The position numbers and the translations under genes are program-made. A DNA stretch of 24,229 nucleotides from Bacteroidaceae bacterium (GTDB lineage: Bacteria > Bacteroidota > Bacteroidia > Bacteroidales > Bacteroidaceae): contig JAFVTT010000002.1 of assembly GCA_017503065.1 (NCBI GenBank), forward strand, positions 1 to 24,229. The letters run 5' to 3'. Within the stretch, counting starts at the first letter, position 1. Each line of letters begins with the position of its first letter. A model generated the notes under the pieces. The model saw only the letters and a list, made by a program, of their open reading frames with translations, had not been told where the DNA came from and ran no database searches. Of the stretch, positions 443-24,103 are shown one piece after another.

Positions 443-529
443 GCGTACCACATGAATTATTAACTTTTTTTGCAAAAGTAGTTCATATAAAAGTTGATTG
501 TCATGCAGTCTTTTAATGTAAATAATATC

Positions 530-537
530 TATATTTG
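530..537 (+). promoter_or_regulatory. Probable -7 box for the sigma-factor/beta-barrel fusion gene
   Basis: TATATTTG fits TAnnTTTG and lies 34 bases upstream of the ATG at 572. No good TTTG is visible at the usual -33 distance. Its position inside the longest open frame (which opens at 494) is one reason to prefer the start at 572. Confidence 0.4.
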
Positions 538-571: not shown

Positions 572-2269
572 ATGGAAATACTCACAGTAGTAGAAAGAGC
601 AAAGGAAAATGATGTTAAGGCTTTTGAAATATTATACAGAACGTACCGTCAGAAGATGGTGGGGATATGCATGAACATCGTCAAGGAGGACAGGACCGTG
701 GTTGACGACCTCGTGCACGATGCGTTTATTCTGGCATTCGTGTCGATAGGGAATCTGAGGGACAATGGCAAGTTCAGCGAGTGGCTGACCACTATAGTAA
801 GGAATGTGTCTCTGAAACATGTGGAACAGAGGGACAGGATGCTCCTGTTGTCCATATCATCTGTCAGTGAGGAGGATACGTTGATGAAGGATTCAGTTTC
901 CTCGCCAGATGCCGACCTTAACTACAAGGAACTGCTCGAACTGGTGAACCTCTTGCCCGAGGGATACAGAAAGATATTCCATCTGTCGGTAGTAGAGGGC
1001 TTCTCACACAAGGAGATTGCAGACATGCTGGGCATAGAACCGCATAGTTCCTCGTCGCAATTGTCTCGTGCCAAGCGTATGCTCAGGCGTATGATAGAGA
1101 GCGGTGCAATCTGGGCGGTAATTGTATTGTTCGCTCCTCTGGCATGGTATTTCGTTTCCAGATATGGAGAGGAGCAAGGCAAGAGGATGGCTGATGTGGG
1201 ACAAGGGAATGAACGTCCCAACCGGGCGTTGAACGATAGTATTGTGGAGGAACCGCATCATGCACAGGACACCTTGCCGAGGCTATGCCCCATTGGGATA
1301 AAGGTTCAAAATACACTGGCCGAGGATAGGGAAGATATGGTGTTGCCGCACGATACAGATACCGTTGCGGTCGTTCTCCCGTCTGCTTCAGTCAATGAAC
1401 CCTTGGTTGCAGAAACAGAAGAGAGGGAGGCGCAGGATGTCCATGCCAGGGACTCAGTAGCAGGAACTGTCTCCATGCCTCGGAACAATAAGTTGGAACA
1501 GTTCATGGCGGAGGACACGAAGTGGCACTTATGCCTAACGGGTTCCCTCGGTTCAGCCTTGGCTCAGAATGGCTATCCGTTTATTGCCACAGACATGTCC
1601 CTTCTTCCAGAACAGGATGGGCCAATACCGGTGTTGCCAGAGCAAATTACCACATGGGAGGAGTATTCCAATTACGTCAGCCTTGTGCCTCCATATAATG
1701 TAACAGAGCGTATCCGTGTTCTCAGTGAGATTTCCGCGCACAACACGGGCAAGATTGAACAAAAGGAACAGCACTCAAGCCCAATTACATTCGGCGTGTC
1801 GTTGGCAAGGCCGCTCGGAAAGAGATGGGGAGTGGAAACCGGCATACAGTATTCTCTGCTCAAATCCACATTCTCCATGGGCGAGGGCGGATACTCCGTA
1901 GTGGATAAGCAGAGCGTGCATTATCTCGGCATACCGCTTCGTGTGTCCTATGATTGGGTATCATACAGAGGGCTTTCGGCATACACTTCCATGGGTGTAA
2001 CGATGCACATACCCGTATACGGAAAGACCAAGAGCGACTATATTGTTGACTGGCAGACGGTTCTGACGGAGAACTGCACCTTCACGCCCTCTCTGCAATG
2101 GCAGGTGGGTGTGAGTCTTGGAGTCCAGTACAGGTTTGCTCCGCACACCAGCATATTCGCTGAACCCACATTCAACTGGTTCATACCCTCTGGCGGTGAA
2201 ACACGTACCGTATGGACGGAACATCCTGTAATGTTCACATGTCCGTTCGGTATCAGGATTACCTGGTAG
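572..2269 (+). CDS. ECF sigma factor fused through a membrane helix to an outer-membrane beta-barrel
   Basis: This 565-residue protein combines two normally separate machines. Residues about 6-85 are sigma region 2 (AFEILYRTYRQKMVGICMNI, VDDLVHDAFILAF, FSEWLTTIVRN). Residues about 119-172 are region 4 with its helix-turn-helix (LPEGYRKIFHLSVVEGFSHK, EIADMLGI, LSRAKRMLRRM). A hydrophobic segment follows at once, about 178-197 (AIWAVIVLFAPLAWYFV). Next comes an acidic, low-complexity linker to about 317, then a beta-barrel domain of the type seen in Bacteroidetes anti-sigma/porin proteins (WHLCLTGSLGSALAQNGY, LGKRWGVETGIQYS, VHYLGIPLRVSYDW, GVSLGVQYRF, SIFAEPTFNW), ending in an aromatic residue as outer-membrane proteins do. 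The start at 572 is preferred because an upstream TATATTTG box would otherwise be coding; a longer start at 494 is possible. The frame is uninterrupted across the junction. Domain identities are fairly sure; how it works is inference. The 3' end overlaps the opposing glycosyltransferase gene. Confidence 0.85.
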   Translation: MEILTVVERAKENDVKAFEILYRTYRQKMVGICMNIVKEDRTVVDDLVHDAFILAFVSIGNLRDNGKFSEWLTTIVRNVSLKHVEQRDRMLLLSISSVSEEDTLMKDSVSSPDADLNYKELLELVNLLPEGYRKIFHLSVVEGFSHKEIADMLGIEPHSSSSQLSRAKRMLRRMIESGAIWAVIVLFAPLAWYFVSRYGEEQGKRMADVGQGNERPNRALNDSIVEEPHHAQDTLPRLCPIGIKVQNTLAEDREDMVLPHDTDTVAVVLPSASVNEPLVAETEEREAQDVHARDSVAGTVSMPRNNKLEQFMAEDTKWHLCLTGSLGSALAQNGYPFIATDMSLLPEQDGPIPVLPEQITTWEEYSNYVSLVPPYNVTERIRVLSEISAHNTGKIEQKEQHSSPITFGVSLARPLGKRWGVETGIQYSLLKSTFSMGEGGYSVVDKQSVHYLGIPLRVSYDWVSYRGLSAYTSMGVTMHIPVYGKTKSDYIVDWQTVLTENCTFTPSLQWQVGVSLGVQYRFAPHTSIFAEPTFNWFIPSGGETRTVWTEHPVMFTCPFGIRITW

Positions 2270-3317
2270 CATGTCTGCTGAGGTATTGTGTGGATATCGT
2301 GGAGCGTTCGTTGATGGAGAGGCGCAATGCCGTTGTCAGTTCCTCCCTTGGGCAATCCACGGCCTGCGCGAGCAGGTCGCGGTGCCTCACCTTCATGACG
2401 AAGACGCTCGGCCCTGTGGTGATACTCCCTACAAAAGAATGGCTTGATGGCAGCAGGTCTGCGGAGACGAGAAGGCGGCGGATGGCATCCTTCTTGCTGG
2501 AGGGGTCTTCATTGCAGAAACGCTGGTGACAATAGCCCTTCTCGTCCTGTTGGCATAGCGTCAGAATCCTCAGGTTGGGGAAATCCTCCTGAGCCTTCTG
2601 GTACTGGCGGTAGTCATCAGTAAGGATGAACAGGCAAGCCTCCTCACTCCCAAACTCCAATCTGCTTATAATGGTCTTTCCGTCTATCAGGCTCGTCTCC
2701 GTAATCTTGTCGCCACCCCTTATCTGCACAGCGGAGTAGACGGGCGGCAGACGTAGTTTGGCCTTGTAACTGTCTTCCAGTCGTATCATCTCCGGCGTAA
2801 ACCTCCAAACCATGCGTGCTACCATGCTGTATGCACTCATATAGTCGGCATCTATGCCAAGTTCCGGAACGCAGAACCTCTGCACCCCTTCCAAAGAAAC
2901 GTCCTGCGAAAGGAATACCGCTTCTCCGTAAGTCCACAGGGACGCCAACCTGCCAGTCAAGGTTTTCATGCCCGACTTCGCTTTCCAGGCAATCGCCCCC
3001 AGGGACTTCTGCCTGCGGCATAGCCTCAGGATATTGCGCCAGGACGGCAGCCTGTGGAAATTGTACTTTTGGTGGAACTTCTCATGCACCTCTTCGCAGA
3101 AGGGCAGGAAGTACTCTGTCCACCCGATGCCGGTGCCGAAATTGGCGTCCTCCGAATATATTTGGAACCTGATGCGGTGTGCCAGGCAATAGAGCATGGC
3201 ATTCACCATATAGTTCATCTCCACAAAGAACCCGCAATCCACGCCTATGCGATATACCATCCTTTTGCGGAATGAGGCATTTACCCTACGGTACGATTCG
3301 ATATCCAGTTTCTCCAT
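2259..3317 (-). CDS. Fucosyltransferase-like (GT23/O-FucT-type fold) glycosyltransferase
   Basis: The 352-residue protein has no signal peptide. Its N-terminal part (GFFVEMNYMVNAMLYCLAHR at about 29-48, then IYSEDANFGTGIGWTEYFLP) resembles the opening of bacterial fucosyltransferase-like enzymes. Residues 194-204 (YSAVQIRGGDK) match the H-x-R-x-G/T-D-K nucleotide-sugar motif of alpha-1,6-fucosyltransferases, with Gln where His is usual. LFILTDD (229-235) and SADLLPSSHSFVGSITTGPS (285-304) match the later donor-site motifs. A role in adding a sugar, perhaps fucose, to a glycan or glycoprotein in the cytoplasm is likely, but donor and acceptor are unknown. It stands alone rather than in a polysaccharide cluster. 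Its stop lies inside the last codons of the opposing sigma fusion gene, and no terminator separates them. Family confidence is moderate; substrate is not known. Confidence 0.6.
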   Translation of the reverse strand: MEKLDIESYRRVNASFRKRMVYRIGVDCGFFVEMNYMVNAMLYCLAHRIRFQIYSEDANFGTGIGWTEYFLPFCEEVHEKFHQKYNFHRLPSWRNILRLCRRQKSLGAIAWKAKSGMKTLTGRLASLWTYGEAVFLSQDVSLEGVQRFCVPELGIDADYMSAYSMVARMVWRFTPEMIRLEDSYKAKLRLPPVYSAVQIRGGDKITETSLIDGKTIISRLEFGSEEACLFILTDDYRQYQKAQEDFPNLRILTLCQQDEKGYCHQRFCNEDPSSKKDAIRRLLVSADLLPSSHSFVGSITTGPSVFVMKVRHRDLLAQAVDCPREELTTALRLSINERSTISTQYLSRHATR

Positions 3318-3397
3318 GCTATCATGTGCCGGTATGCGCTTTCCTTTTCACCCGACATCCATATAGATAGGATAGCATGCAGGATGACTGCACGGAC

Positions 3398-3434
3398 AAA
3401 AAAAGAAGGGACACTTCACAGTCGTGTCCCTTCT
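3398..3434 (-). terminator. Rho-independent terminator after the flavodiiron gene
   Basis: An 11-bp perfect stem (AGAAGGGACAC, 3404-3414, with 3424-3434) has a 9-base loop. On the minus strand it is followed by seven T (complement of 3398-3404). It lies 45 bases past the flavodiiron stop. A T5 run on the plus side could let it work in both directions. Confidence 0.88.
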
Positions 3435-11182: not shown

Positions 11183-13714
11183 ATGAAAAAAAATGTTTTT
11201 TCTAAAATCCTCATGATGGCGTCTGTAGTTGCTGTTTTGAGTGGATTCAATTCTTGTAAGGATTATTCCGACGAAGTGAAATCTGACCTATTGGCCAAAC
11301 TGGAAAACCAAAACACGACTTTGCAGGAAGCTTTAGCTGCACAAAAGGAGGAGTTCATGCAGAAAATCGCCGAATTGGAGGCTGCTCAGGAGGCTTGCAA
11401 ATCGGAGTGTGCTAACAAGATGAAAGAGCTGGATGCAAAGTGGAACACAAATTTGGCGGCAGAAATTGCCAAGTTACAGAATGTGGATGCCAGTCTTCAG
11501 GATCAGATTAACAAAATTAATGCGTTGTTAGGCGCAGTAGATCCCAATAAGACCATTGCTGAACAGATTGCTGATGTAAACAAAATTGCTGCTGAAGCCG
11601 CAGCTAATGCTCAATCAGCTTTGGAACAACTCAAGACAGTAAATGCAACAACAAAAGATTTTGAGGAGCGAATAACCGCATTGGAGAATTGGCAGAAGGA
11701 AGTTAAGGATCTGATAGTTGCCTGGAGTGATCGTCTTACAAAGGTTGAGACAGATGCTGCTAAGGCACTTGCAGATGCTAAAGCTAATGCTGACAGAATA
11801 GAGATCATAGAAAAGTTGGCAGCTGCTCATGGAGTAAGACTTGATAGCATAGTTGAAGTATTGAAGGATTATGCTACAAAGGAGGAATTGGCAGAGGTTA
11901 AGACGCTTGCTGAAAATAATCTTGCCGCTGCAAAAGAGTATGCTGATTCTCAGGTTGCTGCTTTGACAGGGGGATACACAGGCACAATTAAAGACTTGGA
12001 AACAGAAATGCTTAAGGCAGATTCTCTATTGGCTGAAAGACTTGATGCTGTTGAAAATGCAGTAAACGAGATTAAGGATCAAGTTGCTAAGAATACTGTT
12101 GCAATAGACAATTTGACCGGTGCAATGAAGAAGCTGATTACCAGTGTGATTATTCAAGGTACTGAAAATCCTGTAATGGGATCAATTGCAACTCCTTTCA
12201 ATACGCGTTCAAACATCTTGGCTGCATATTACGGTAGCGTAGAGTCACAGGGTTTGGAATTCCCAACGGAATTGCCTAGATTCTATGTTGACAACGTGGT
12301 TTTGACAACAAAGGATATTGAAATGCTTGGCGTTTCTAGTATTACAGCAGAAGCTGGTTCAACACTGCTTGGTTCTGAAGGTAATGCTGGTACTTTGTAT
12401 TTGACAGTTAACCCCAACACTGTAGATTTCACAGGAACAACATTTACATTGGTTAACAGCCAGGACGAATTGGCAGGTGCAGAACTTGGTTCTATTGAGC
12501 TGTCAGATGAGGTTTTGAGTTTCGGTATAACTCGTGCCAAGAATAATGGTTTTTATGAAACAAAGGCTACCATTAAGGATGAAAATCTTGAAAAAGTTAA
12601 GTTAAACTTGAACTTTAATGAGATAAAGGATGTTGCAACAGACATATTTGATGGTGAAGGCGTTAACGTTACTCAGTTAGCTAATACAGTTGCAAACACA
12701 ATGTCTTCCTTTAATATGGAAGCAAATGGCGTTAAGGCTTCTTGGACTGATTCTGATGGTGAACATAGCACCTATTCACAATATGGTGTTGCTGTTGTTG
12801 CTGTCAAGCCTTTGTCTTTCACCTTTGGAAAGGATTTCAACTATCAAACAGTTCCTGGATATGAACGTCTAGAAGGTTTTATCGGAAAAATAACAGACAA
12901 GGTAAAAGCGGCAATTGCTAAGACCGATAAACTCCTTAATATTGATCTTATTGAAATTAAGGAAATTATTATACCAGAAACACCTGAAGTTGAAGATGTT
13001 CAGGTATCTGTAACAATACCTGGTCAGTGGATAGACAATGGCTACGGAAAACAAATTTGGGTAGATGCAAAAACTACATCTATCTATGTTCCCATTCAGG
13101 AGGTTGTTGATGATGTTTATGGAGATTTGGCTTCTTCATTCTCAGACGTTAATGCTATGTTGGATGATCTTAGAGGTATGATGAAACAGATTAATGATAT
13201 ACTGAAGGCAGGTAAGGATCTACAGGCAGAGGCTAATAGTTATGCAGACAGATTCCAGACTAAGCTTACAGACTATCTCAATAAGTTTAATAACAAGTTC
13301 TGTAATATAATCAACTCTACAAATAAGGCATTACGTCCAGTATTGCTTGTTAATACCAACAAGGGATTCCATAAAATCAGCCAGGCAGAAAATAATCCTA
13401 CTGTAATTACCGGCACAGAACTTGAATTGATTCCCACTTCCTATACAATGGAATACATTGCCCCTGCATATAAGAAACTGGTTGGTGTTACCAATGTCTA
13501 CAAGGATGGCGCGTCTGCACAGACTGGTAATCCTGCATGTATGGCAGCACTTAATAAGGTCAATGCCCAGAATGGTATTGCTGAGATTCTTGCAGGTAAT
13601 ACATATCAGGTTAGTGCAACTCTTGAAACCGGATTTGTTTATGAGATCGTTTATACAGCAGTCGATTTCTATGGTAAGGTTGATGCCAAGAAGTTCTATG
13701 TAACTGTTAAGTAA
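11183..13714 (+). CDS. Large coiled-coil outer-membrane/surface lipoprotein
   Basis: The 843-residue protein has a lipoprotein signal peptide ending at Cys25 (VLSGFNSC), followed by the charged KDYSDE typical of Bacteroidetes lipoproteins sent to the outer membrane or surface. Residues about 27-320 are rich in Ala, Glu, Lys and Leu with heptad-like spacing (KLENQNTTLQEALAAQKEEF, DRIEIIEKLAAAHGVRLDSI), predicting a long coiled coil. Residues about 325-625 look beta-rich. A second helical stretch near 650-710 (VNAMLDDLRGMMKQINDIL) precedes a C-terminal beta-rich region. Similar Prevotella/Bacteroides proteins are often annotated only as 'PL29 lyase N-terminal domain-containing', a label based on the coil; I see no evidence of lyase activity. 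It lies 39 bp upstream of ompA on the same strand and shares its AT-rich codon use. A structural or adhesion role at the surface is plausible but unproven. Confidence 0.8.
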   Translation: MKKNVFSKILMMASVVAVLSGFNSCKDYSDEVKSDLLAKLENQNTTLQEALAAQKEEFMQKIAELEAAQEACKSECANKMKELDAKWNTNLAAEIAKLQNVDASLQDQINKINALLGAVDPNKTIAEQIADVNKIAAEAAANAQSALEQLKTVNATTKDFEERITALENWQKEVKDLIVAWSDRLTKVETDAAKALADAKANADRIEIIEKLAAAHGVRLDSIVEVLKDYATKEELAEVKTLAENNLAAAKEYADSQVAALTGGYTGTIKDLETEMLKADSLLAERLDAVENAVNEIKDQVAKNTVAIDNLTGAMKKLITSVIIQGTENPVMGSIATPFNTRSNILAAYYGSVESQGLEFPTELPRFYVDNVVLTTKDIEMLGVSSITAEAGSTLLGSEGNAGTLYLTVNPNTVDFTGTTFTLVNSQDELAGAELGSIELSDEVLSFGITRAKNNGFYETKATIKDENLEKVKLNLNFNEIKDVATDIFDGEGVNVTQLANTVANTMSSFNMEANGVKASWTDSDGEHSTYSQYGVAVVAVKPLSFTFGKDFNYQTVPGYERLEGFIGKITDKVKAAIAKTDKLLNIDLIEIKEIIIPETPEVEDVQVSVTIPGQWIDNGYGKQIWVDAKTTSIYVPIQEVVDDVYGDLASSFSDVNAMLDDLRGMMKQINDILKAGKDLQAEANSYADRFQTKLTDYLNKFNNKFCNIINSTNKALRPVLLVNTNKGFHKISQAENNPTVITGTELELIPTSYTMEYIAPAYKKLVGVTNVYKDGASAQTGNPACMAALNKVNAQNGIAEILAGNTYQVSATLETGFVYEIVYTAVDFYGKVDAKKFYVTVK

Positions 13715-13753: not shown

Positions 13754-14872
13754 ATGAAAAAAATGATAGTTTCTTTGATGCTTGCCATGGGAATCATGGC
13801 AGCATCAGCACAGGAACATCAGCCTAAAACCGAGAATGTATTCAATCCTCATTGGTATGTTCAGGTTCAGGGTGGTGCTCAGTATACTTTGGGAGAAATG
13901 GATTTTGGTGATCTCATTTCTCCAAATGTGCAGATTTCTGGCGGTTATAATTTTACGAAATTGTTTGGTCTTCGTCTTTCCGTAAATGCATGGCAAAGCA
14001 AAGCAGGAGGTAATTATAGCCGTGACTACTCTTGGAGTTGGAACTATGTTAATCCCAATGTCGATGCTATTCTGAATTTATCTAATTTAATAGCAGGATA
14101 TAATCCCAATCGCTTATTCAATGTTAGCGGTTATGTAGGCGTGGGTGTTAATGTTGCGTGGGGAAATGAGGAGGCTGCATCTGTTAAAAATTCCATCTAT
14201 GCAGATTACAATTATCCTTCCTATCACAGTTCTGCTGCTCTTGCAAATTTGTGGTATGGTACCAAGTCCTTTTTTAATGCTCGTGCAGGCTTGATGGGTG
14301 ACTTCCATATTACAGACAATTGGAGTGTTGGTTTGGAAGTAAATGCAAATGTTCTTTCTGATGCCTATAATTCTAAGAAGGCAGGCAATGCAGATTGGCA
14401 TTTTAATGCATTGGTAGGTGTTAAGTATGCTTTTGGCAAGACCAATACTACACGTGAAATTGCTCCTTGCTGTGAACCTGAGATTCGCTATGTTGAGAAA
14501 CCCATTATAAAGGAAGTTCCCGTAGAAGTTGTAAAGGAAGTGCTTGTAGAAACTCTTCGTCGTGATGTATTCTTTAGTTTGAATAGCACTAAGGTTTCTA
14601 ATGCAGAAATGTACAAGATCAATGAAGTAGCAGATTTTCTGAAGGCTAATCCTAAAGCAAAAGTATCTGTTGCTGGTTATGCAGATAAGGGCACAGGTAA
14701 TGCTTCTATTAATAAACGAATTTCAGAAAAACGAGCCAAAGTTGTAACTGACATATTGGTTAATAAGTTTGGTATTTCACAAGATCGAATTACGTCTGAT
14801 TCTTTTGGCGATGTTGAGCAGCCCTTCGAAATCAATTCTATGAATCGCGTATGTATCTGTATTGCTAAATAA
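13754..14872 (+). CDS. OmpA-family outer-membrane protein (barrel plus peptidoglycan-binding domain)
   Basis: The 372-residue protein has a signal peptide cleaved before Gln20 (MAASA/QEHQ). Residues about 30-230 form an OmpA-type barrel (HWYVQVQGGAQYTLGEMDFG, NWSVGLEVNANV, NALVGVKYAFGK). A linker with adjacent cysteines (C239, C240) and the charged IRYVEKPIIKEVPVEVVKEV follows. Residues about 268-372 are the OmpA C-terminal domain: DVFFSLNSTKV, VAGYADKGTG and NKRISEKRAKVV. Asp311 and Arg327 correspond to the pair that binds diaminopimelate in peptidoglycan. The protein anchors the outer membrane to the wall and probably is a major envelope protein. It is in tandem with the coiled-coil lipoprotein, suggesting co-expression. 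A hairpin lies 34 bases after the stop. Functional assignment is secure at family level. Confidence 0.93.
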   Translation: MKKMIVSLMLAMGIMAASAQEHQPKTENVFNPHWYVQVQGGAQYTLGEMDFGDLISPNVQISGGYNFTKLFGLRLSVNAWQSKAGGNYSRDYSWSWNYVNPNVDAILNLSNLIAGYNPNRLFNVSGYVGVGVNVAWGNEEAASVKNSIYADYNYPSYHSSAALANLWYGTKSFFNARAGLMGDFHITDNWSVGLEVNANVLSDAYNSKKAGNADWHFNALVGVKYAFGKTNTTREIAPCCEPEIRYVEKPIIKEVPVEVVKEVLVETLRRDVFFSLNSTKVSNAEMYKINEVADFLKANPKAKVSVAGYADKGTGNASINKRISEKRAKVVTDILVNKFGISQDRITSDSFGDVEQPFEINSMNRVCICIAK

Positions 14873-23066: not shown

Positions 23067-23555
23067 ATGACACAAACGGAGTTCGAACATAAACTGATAG
23101 GGATGCGCCCTCAGATGCTGAGGGTGGCCATGGATTTCTTCCACAACGAGGAGGATGCCGAGGATGTTGTCCAGGAGGTTTATGTAAGGATGCTGAAACG
23201 CGGGTGGCGACAGGGCGACAACGTTGAGGCCTTGGGCATAAGAGCGACAAAGAACCTGTGTGTCAGCGTGTGGAGGCGGCAACGATTGCGGGAATCCGAA
23301 CCATTGGAAAGCGTTCCGGAGTCTGCCGGACATGATTCCGCCGACACTCCGCTGCTAAACGGAGAACGGCATGCCGAGATAGAAAATGCCATACGAAAAC
23401 TTCCTCCGTCCGAGCAGAGGCTGATAAGGATGAAACATCAGGACGACATGCCTCTGGAGGAGATAGCAAAAAAGACGGGGATGAGCTGCCGTTCGGCCAG
23501 CACCATCATCAGTTCGGCAAAGAAACATCTACTAAAACTGATTAAAGACACATGA
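23067..23555 (+). CDS. ECF-family RNA polymerase sigma factor
   Basis: The 162-residue protein has sigma region 2 at about 5-72 (FFHNEEDAEDVVQEVYVRML, LGIRATKNLCVSVWRRQR) and region 4 at about 104-160 (AIRKLPPSEQRLIRMKHQDD, MPLEEIAKKTGMS, ASTIISSAKKHLLKLI). It directs RNA polymerase to a target regulon, typically envelope functions in this phylum. The next gene starts in its stop codon (ATGA, 23552-23555), and that gene encodes a single-pass membrane protein, the usual place for an anti-sigma factor. Unlike the fusion at 572-2269, this sigma factor is a separate polypeptide of normal size. Confidence 0.93.
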   Translation: MTQTEFEHKLIGMRPQMLRVAMDFFHNEEDAEDVVQEVYVRMLKRGWRQGDNVEALGIRATKNLCVSVWRRQRLRESEPLESVPESAGHDSADTPLLNGERHAEIENAIRKLPPSEQRLIRMKHQDDMPLEEIAKKTGMSCRSASTIISSAKKHLLKLIKDT

Positions 23556-24103
23556 TTGACAAGGAACTTATACGACAGGCAGCAGAAGACATTGACATCT
23601 TCGAGGCAGACCTCAGCCAGGAATATGACCGCATAGCACGTCAGCGCAAGCCGCTACGCCTATGGCCATGGGCGGCGGCCGCATGCCTGGTGATTGCGGT
23701 GGGCATATCTCTGCCAATGCTGGTGCGCACGGACAATGGCAACAGAAATACCATCGCTGAGGCAAAGATACAAACAGAGGGCGGACCTGTTGCCCAGCCA
23801 TCAGGGGTAGAGAGCGACGTTGCAATACCCGTACCACCTCCCCCTCCAGCCAGCGAAACCACAAATTTACGTTTGTCACAAACGGAAAAGATGCCGCCAC
23901 CTACGGCAACACCGGTAGAGGCTGAAGCAAAAACAAATCAAGAGTGCACGGAAGTTGACGAAATGATGTGCAATCTGCTTGACGAGATTACACAACAGAC
24001 AATTGCTGAGAAGAAATACGAGGAACATCTGTATTACACCCTGATGGAGGAAATCTGCACAAACGCATCTAACGAACATAACACACCGGAACTATCATTA
24101 TGA
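23552..24103 (+). CDS. Single-pass membrane protein, probable anti-sigma factor
   Basis: The 183-residue protein has an acidic cytoplasmic N-terminus (about 1-36), one membrane helix at about 38-57 (LWPWAAAACLVIAVGISLPM) and a periplasmic region with a proline run (VAIPVPPPPPA near 90-100). The C-terminal helical stretch begins near VDEMMCNLLDEITQQTIAEK. No zinc-binding HxxxCxxC is present in the N-terminal part, so it is not a ZAS-type anti-sigma factor. The assignment rests on topology and on 4-base overlaps with the sigma gene upstream and the exported-protein gene downstream. It could instead be a structural membrane protein co-regulated with the sigma factor. Confidence 0.6.
   Translation: MIDKELIRQAAEDIDIFEADLSQEYDRIARQRKPLRLWPWAAAACLVIAVGISLPMLVRTDNGNRNTIAEAKIQTEGGPVAQPSGVESDVAIPVPPPPPASETTNLRLSQTEKMPPPTATPVEAEAKTNQECTEVDEMMCNLLDEITQQTIAEKKYEEHLYYTLMEEICTNASNEHNTPELSL

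Follow-up and report, generated by a model that had tools for sequence, protein, structure and literature searches.

The window analyzed here (the whole stretch of 24,229 nucleotides) contains a single open reading frame that joins an ECF sigma factor, a membrane helix, and a predicted outer-membrane barrel in one polypeptide, an arrangement claimed in the original prediction and borne out by Pfam and by an AlphaFold2 model. We give a probability of about 0.58 to the reading that this protein is a Dma3-type trans-envelope sigma factor, freed by proteolysis, which transcribes itself and an adjacent surface-modification gene from a private promoter. The architecture, its conservation, the paired promoters, and the target families are computational observations. 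The private promoter, the paired targets, and the agreement of their -10 boxes are the new content, promoter and neighboring target gene having been added by this analysis to the original prediction. The fusion gene and its parts are:

572..2269, plus strand: Dma3-type sigma/helix/linker/barrel fusion gene, 565 residues without an internal stop.
578..844, plus strand: sigma region 2 (residues 3-91), from Pfam PF04542, model helices, and PDB sequence matches to ECF sigmas.
923..1099, plus strand: sigma region 4 (residues 118-176), bearing the PHSSSSQLSRAK signature, from Pfam PF08281 and alignments.
1106..1171, plus strand: membrane helix (residues 179-200), from hydropathy and flanking charge in 80 relatives and a helix in the model.
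1175..1510, plus strand: disordered linker (residues 202-313), kept in length rather than in sequence.
1526..2266, plus strand: predicted outer-membrane barrel (residues 319-565) with a C-terminal Trp, from Pfam PF13568, the model, and Foldseek.
1553..1783, plus strand: conserved insert within the barrel, after the first strand (residues 328-404).

The Met encoded at 572 is also the start in relatives, and two ATG codons (503 and 539) lie upstream in frame with the gene. In the fusion protein, Pfam detects Sigma70_r2 at residues 21-89 (6e-10), Sigma70_r4_2 at 119-171 (1e-13), and OMP_b-brl_2 at 396-530 (4e-7); by Pfam, PDB, and Foldseek, regions 2 and 4 are present without regions 1 and 3, which is the ECF layout. 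The AlphaFold2 model, computed from an 85-row alignment of full-length relatives (mean pLDDT 72.5, pTM 0.47), shows sigma region 2 helices at 3-91, region 4 at 118-176, one helix at 179-200, disorder at 202-313, and strands from 319 to 563, the pLDDT being 85-97 for residues 1-90 and 84-96 between about 361 and 560, with lower values in region 4 (57-80), the helix (71-79), and the first strand (60-63). The original prediction had region 4 ending about six residues before the helix; the adjacency stands and the distance is refined, with region 4 ending at 176 in the model and the helix beginning at 179. Also, the barrel expected after residue 318 is indeed predicted there, its strands starting at 319 and the first of them being modeled at modest confidence. 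A Foldseek search with the model gave seven PDB matches at E ≤ 0.001. One is a porin (9nh2), and the other six are sigma-like chains or belong to an RNA-guided transcription complex, with E. coli sigmaE (1or7) as the best; weaker matches to OmpA, OmpX, and OmpT structures come next (E 0.005-0.02, target TM-scores 0.37-0.54). Pfam finds no FecR-like periplasmic domain in the fusion protein, whose linker is disordered in the model, and an N-terminal anti-sigma segment is absent, region 4 running straight into the helix. On these features (model and charge), sigma, one helix, and a periplasmic part form an IutY-like layout. The insert at 328-404, mostly absent from the shorter Bacteroides-type fusions in the alignment, would face outward by analogy with OmpA topology, and a ligand for it is possible.

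The architecture is conserved across species, with full-length relatives common in Bacteroidaceae. Among 7996 scored candidates sharing most words with the fusion protein, 2322 are homologues at E ≤ 1e-3, and 118 (counted by eye) of the 120 homologues among the matches listed align over 94% or more of the query. At least 75 of 399 Bacteroidaceae genomes hold an unbroken match from residue 7 or before to residue 563 or beyond, a lower bound obtained from rows picked by eye and recounted, with up to three candidates per genome scored; a match at E ≤ 1e-30, split halves included, is present in 181 of the 399. In an even sample of the order, 4 of 294 genomes have a match at E ≤ 1e-40 (up to four candidates per genome scored). 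Named carriers among 80 loci include Bacteroides faecis, B. salyersiae, B. nordii, and Leyella stercorea, together with assemblies labeled Prevotella, Muribaculaceae, and Porphyromonadaceae, and Parabacteroides goldsteinii is a further carrier. The P. goldsteinii and B. faecis fusions (P0142 and P0122) are 63% identical despite belonging to different families, which hints at gene transfer.

Topology was assessed in 80 of the 85 aligned relatives, five being dropped because the exact anchor motif was absent. A hydrophobic helix follows region 4 in 79 of the 80 and a C-terminal Trp is found in 78, while the linker measures 92-136 residues (median 116) and the mean net charge is +4.7 for the 15 residues before the helix and +0.6 for the 15 after it. 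Charge, hydrophobicity, and the terminal Trp fit a cytoplasmic sigma domain, as originally proposed, a periplasmic linker, and a BAM-inserted barrel. Pro occurs inside the helix in 74 of the 80, which is compatible with intramembrane cleavage and proves nothing. Identity of 84 relatives to the window protein is 55% in sigma region 2, 71% in region 4, 26% in the helix, 17% in the linker, 55% in the first strand, 39% in the insert at 328-404, and 56% in the rest of the barrel. By arithmetic, some 115 linker residues would reach about 39 nm when fully extended, exceeding what the periplasm needs.

Split sigma/Dma pairs exist, and in one genome (G083, locus L015, 1492-2984) a fusion copy is broken into two overlapping frames; these facts speak for the idea that a sequencing or assembly artefact joined two genes. 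Against it, full-length fusions occur unbroken in many genomes and metagenomes, and a single supported branch separates the fusions from the split forms. The conserved full-length relatives lead us to reject this explanation, whose probability is negligible, and with it the possibilities of an error near the junction and of homologues that are always two genes. The two L015 frames, which encode sigma plus helix (228 residues) and the barrel part (269 residues), adjoin a transposase-like gene.

The split systems bear on the earlier claim that sigma takes the place of the anti-sigma part, which holds: ten split Dma proteins have a cytoplasmic segment of about 45 residues ahead of the helix, and the fusion has none. 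In trees restricted to 65 fusions and 10 split pairs, the two forms fall on two sides of one branch, with supports of 100/99 for sigma (without outgroup) and 98/94 for the barrel, which is consistent with one fusion or fission event. Adding an outgroup to the sigma tree raises the changes required for the fused label to two, since the outgroup attaches among the fusions, a placement that is unsure given an outgroup branch length of 10. In two split pairs (L063 and L216), the order is sigma, Dma with its N-terminal cytoplasmic segment, and a methyltransferase, and the TGCAGTC promoter described below stands before both sigma and methyltransferase genes. An origin of the fusions from such methyltransferase-linked pairs is unsupported, as both kinds of split pair group together, apart from the fusions. 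The same target and the same promoter in fused and split forms suggest that the circuit was kept when sigma joined the barrel chain and the anti-sigma segment was lost.

The original prediction knew of no fusion of this kind as a studied system, and here it was mistaken: the same architecture has been described under the name Dma3, a kind to which the window protein adds a further member. Dma3 of Bacteroides thetaiotaomicron is a Dma protein with an N-terminal sigma domain (Pardue et al. 2026, PMC13088901, which cites Pardue et al. 2024), and it has been deleted and followed in transcriptomes. The dma3 locus (bt_2778-2779) is induced on deletion of dma1 or dma2, and deletion of dma3 leaves the vesicle profile of the dma1/dma2 mutants unreverted (PMC13088901); the same report states that very little is known about Dma3. 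BT2778 also appears in an iron-stimulon table with a 2.3-fold change (PMC10434189). No description of the promoter or targets reported below was found in open-access PubMed Central literature, and the parts of the Dma2 paper (PMC13088901) and of the iron paper (PMC10434189) that concern Dma3 name no target. The window protein resembles Dma3 in carrying an N-terminal sigma in a Dma chain (helix, tether, barrel) with no separate cognate sigma gene alongside, and it aligns over its full length, at 35% identity, with P0124, a probable B. thetaiotaomicron Dma3 copy. It can also be aligned full-length with the fusion of B. faecis, which has a methyltransferase downstream. B. faecis is the sister species of B. 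thetaiotaomicron. In contrast to Dma3-type genes followed by a co-directional methyltransferase, the window gene faces a convergent fucosyltransferase-like gene.

In the split Dma1/Das1 and Dma2/Das2 systems and in a pair from P. vulgatus, a barrel-tether-helix protein likewise controls an ECF sigma; however, these consist of two genes and have an anti-sigma segment, and the TGCAGTC promoter is absent save in the methyltransferase-linked L063 and L216, being missing from split pairs L060-L062. An antibacterial toxin elicits a response of the P. vulgatus pair (M0N98_03760-61), which makes the O-antigen longer and has been proposed as an envelope-stress sensor (Evans et al. 2022, PMC9308784). 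IutY of Pseudomonas putida is similarly an ECF sigma fused via one helix to a periplasmic part, and cleavage by Prc and RseP frees its active sigma (PMC9249621, PMC8999054), but that periplasmic part is a FecR-like anti-sigma domain addressing a separate receptor, with no barrel in the chain. E. coli sigmaE shares the sigma fold, 1or7 being the best structural match, and differs in having a separate anti-sigma factor, RseA, and no covalent outer-membrane link. The sigmaE/RseA system responds to an outer-membrane signal.

In the window, the fusion gene is flanked by the start of an oligopeptidase-like gene and by the fucosyltransferase-like gene, without an adjacent separate sigma gene. The putative promoters and target gene, with two further elements of the window, are:

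504..533, plus strand: putative ECF-type promoter ahead of the fusion gene (TGCAGTC, 15 nt, TATCTATA).
2259..3317, minus strand: convergent putative target gene (family E), 352 residues, FUT8/NodZ-like fucosyltransferase fold.
3362..3392, minus strand: second promoter copy, before the fucosyltransferase-like gene (TGCAGTC, 16 nt, TATCTATA).
3398..3432, minus strand: terminator-like hairpin with a T run, between the preceding gene and the 3362-3392 promoter, found by eye.
23067..24103: another ECF sigma gene (162 residues) and an overlapping gene (183 residues, with a hydrophobic stretch and without a Pfam match), which looks like an ordinary sigma/anti-sigma pair without a barrel.

The pattern TGCAGTC-N15/16-TATCTATA has two exact matches in the window versus none in 100 shuffles. 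The copy before the fucosyltransferase-like gene was located by reading the sequence, as a window scan for TGCAGTCTTT with one mismatch misses it; the hairpin has a 9-nt loop, outside the limits of the hairpin scan, and hence was unlisted. Elsewhere in the window, an 843-residue secreted-looking protein with a long, coiled-coil-like N-terminal half (11183-13714) is followed by an OmpA-like gene (13754-14872).

The family E protein is modeled at pLDDT 90, and the 29 best PDB fold matches of this model are all FUT8 or NodZ (query TM 0.47-0.57). At E ≤ 0.1, PF19745, the FUT8 Pfam model, matches 13 of the 61 family members in the alignment (best 9e-5); the member in the window has no Pfam match, PF19745 included, and no PDB sequence match. 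Across 127 loci with a fusion gene (a redundant set), four families recur downstream: A, radical SAM/SPASM proteins (55 loci); B, Gfo/Idh/MocA oxidoreductases (43); C, proteins of about 186 residues with a lipoprotein-like start and no Pfam match (35); and D, SAM methyltransferases (32, seven of them on the opposite strand). None of A-D lies downstream in 28 loci. In the window and in the nearest genome searched (G001), the convergent 352-residue family E gene stands in their place, and relatives of E in L019 and L024 are co-directional, downstream of the fusion.

Motif discovery by word-pair counts upstream of the fusion genes yielded TGCAGTC and a second box. The upstream set comprised 94 non-redundant regions out of 127, of which 122 belong to fusions and 5 to short forms (for instance, the split sigma of L063 and broken or cut copies). 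TGCAG[TCA]C is present in 84 of the 94, and the exact 10-mer TGCAGTCTTT in 65, versus 0.02 per 94 expected from shuffles. In 79 regions, the gap before the -10 box measures 14 nt in 11 cases, 15 nt in 49, and 16 nt in 19, a tally in which the core bases were fixed by the search pattern, the free counts being those of the exact 10-mer and of the base preceding the motif (below). Spacings of 14-16 nt are normal for ECF promoters, and the -10 box takes the forms TATC, CATC, or xxAC.

Across 95 non-redundant loci, 79 of 96 fusion genes and 73 of 93 genes of four neighboring families (A 31/43, C 24/27, D 16/21, E 2/2) have a site close to their start; under the rule used, it is absent from 17 and 20 genes, respectively. 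Family B has none in 31, as expected for the second gene after A inside an operon. Other neighbors have a site in 15 of 343 cases, eight of which lie directly downstream (8/27 there versus 7/316 elsewhere), among them a glycosyltransferase-like gene in L039. Moreover, all 47 sigma-target pairs share the -10 class, and 40 of them share the exact tetramer, which fits one sigma reading both promoters. These statistics are weakened by shared ancestry, the loci being related and not independent, and by the choice of the allowed -10 tetramers after the sites had been seen. TGCAGTC also stands before the fusion gene and before the methyltransferase gene of B. faecis, the second of these sites having a -10 variant uncounted under the rule. 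The two most divergent fusions (L139 and L141) lack the motif under this rule; there, it precedes a gene two places upstream, presumably of a C13-type peptidase.

At the genome scale, G001 (2.6 Mb, 88% complete) contains the strict N16 pattern twice, before the fusion and the fucosyltransferase-like genes, and none was found in the other ten genomes of the same search; a different contig of G001 has a looser form ahead of a methyltransferase gene. The TATC form is found in 17 of 21 carrier genomes versus 1 of 19 non-carriers (reversed-pattern control, 3 matches in 40 genomes), and the GGAC form in 18 of 20 carriers versus 3 of 19 non-carriers (reversed control, 0 in 39), and at two of these three non-carriers the site runs into a short fragment of a fusion gene. 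In each of 11 genomes, a fusion gene has a GGAC site on either side, the first before the gene and the second immediately past its stop. Reading 61 of the 69 site rows of both scans by script, with four repeated rows removed by hand, we found that 29 sites precede a fusion gene, a fusion fragment, or the split sigma L161, 12 precede C, 5 D, 3 A, and 1 an E homologue; the other 11, which include the sole site of one carrier (G328) and that of one non-carrier (G567), precede no sigma gene and no A, C, D, or E gene. At the start of one G001 contig (C2; L230, 140-2951), the barrel end of a second fusion-like gene is followed by a GGAC-type site at 804 and then by A and B genes, the other G001 sites being TATC-type. 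A purine (A or G) immediately precedes TGCAGTC in 84 of 85 cases, so the element can also be read as ATG/GTG CAG TCT, the possible start of a leader. This leader-peptide reading appears less likely, as a stop comes before the gene in 49 of 83 cases and the distance to the -10 box is not constant (14, 15, or 16 nt).

Based on these promoter pairs, we infer that this sigma reads the TGCAGTC promoter. In the preferred mechanism, the helix would hold the sigma domain at the inner membrane, and the length-constrained linker would continue to the small outer-membrane barrel. A disturbance of the barrel or of the outer membrane, or a ligand meeting the barrel, would trigger cutting of the linker, and an intramembrane protease would then free the sigma domain, after the example of IutY. 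The free sigma would read TGCAGTC, 14-16 nt, and a TATC, CATC, or xxAC box before its own gene and before the adjacent surface-modification gene, which would be fucosyltransferase-like here; at other loci its place would be taken by a methyltransferase, a radical-SAM/oxidoreductase pair, or a lipoprotein-like gene. The conjectural parts of this scheme are the tethering, the release, the signal, and the structure that the target modifies: the signal is suggested by the reported response of the P. vulgatus split pair, the tether would be the simplest brake in a protein without an anti-sigma segment, and for proteolytic release IutY is a strong precedent.

A membrane-bound sigma might instead be switched without cleavage, by tension or a shape change transmitted through the linker. 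The linker keeps its length (92-136 residues) and not its sequence (17%), as a mechanical tether would need, and no conserved cleavage site is visible in the alignment of relatives. We nevertheless regard this as unlikely, because the nearest tested fusion, IutY, needs proteolysis (PMC9249621, PMC8999054) and because simultaneous attachment to two membranes would make RNA polymerase access awkward. Alternatively, sigma could be held by a distinct anti-sigma factor from another locus, leaving the barrel as no more than an anchor or a location signal. This would account for the lack of an anti-sigma segment in the fusion and for the response of dma3 expression to the loss of Dma1 and Dma2 (PMC13088901); also, split Dma proteins with such a segment are frequent in the family in the same genomes. 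As far as tested, no recurrent neighbor family in the 127 loci is an anti-sigma by Pfam, and this arrangement seems improbable.

The TGCAGTC promoter could also belong to another sigma that controls the fusion gene and its neighbor, the targets of the fusion lying elsewhere. The data establish co-occurrence rather than binding, and TATATTTG at 530-537, which overlaps the -10 box of the fusion-gene promoter, resembles the Bacteroides housekeeping -7 box and is a possible second, housekeeping promoter. However, the motif is nearly confined to carriers, the -10 class agrees within all 47 pairs, and split pairs without the motif have other neighbors, often NigD-like in those examined, all of which makes another sigma quite unlikely. 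A self-transcribing Dma3-type sigma freed by proteolysis is the reading that we prefer.

Finally, it is about an even chance that sigma/barrel fusions form a family of insulated trans-envelope wires, each sensing the outer membrane and, through a co-evolved private -10 box, firing itself and one swappable surface-modification gene, with several side by side per cell. In G001, TATC-type sites before the fusion, fucosyltransferase-like, and methyltransferase genes coexist with the GGAC-type site before a radical-SAM/oxidoreductase pair. Almost nothing is known, according to the Dma2 report (PMC13088901), of what Dma3 senses or switches on; a predicted private promoter and a defined target gene, with the motif present in B. 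faecis as well, make a direct reporter experiment possible. A protein of the Dma3 type would connect the outer membrane to a promoter by the shortest route, and its predicted wiring suggests that these bacteria may readjust their surface sugars or lipids upon outer-membrane disturbance.
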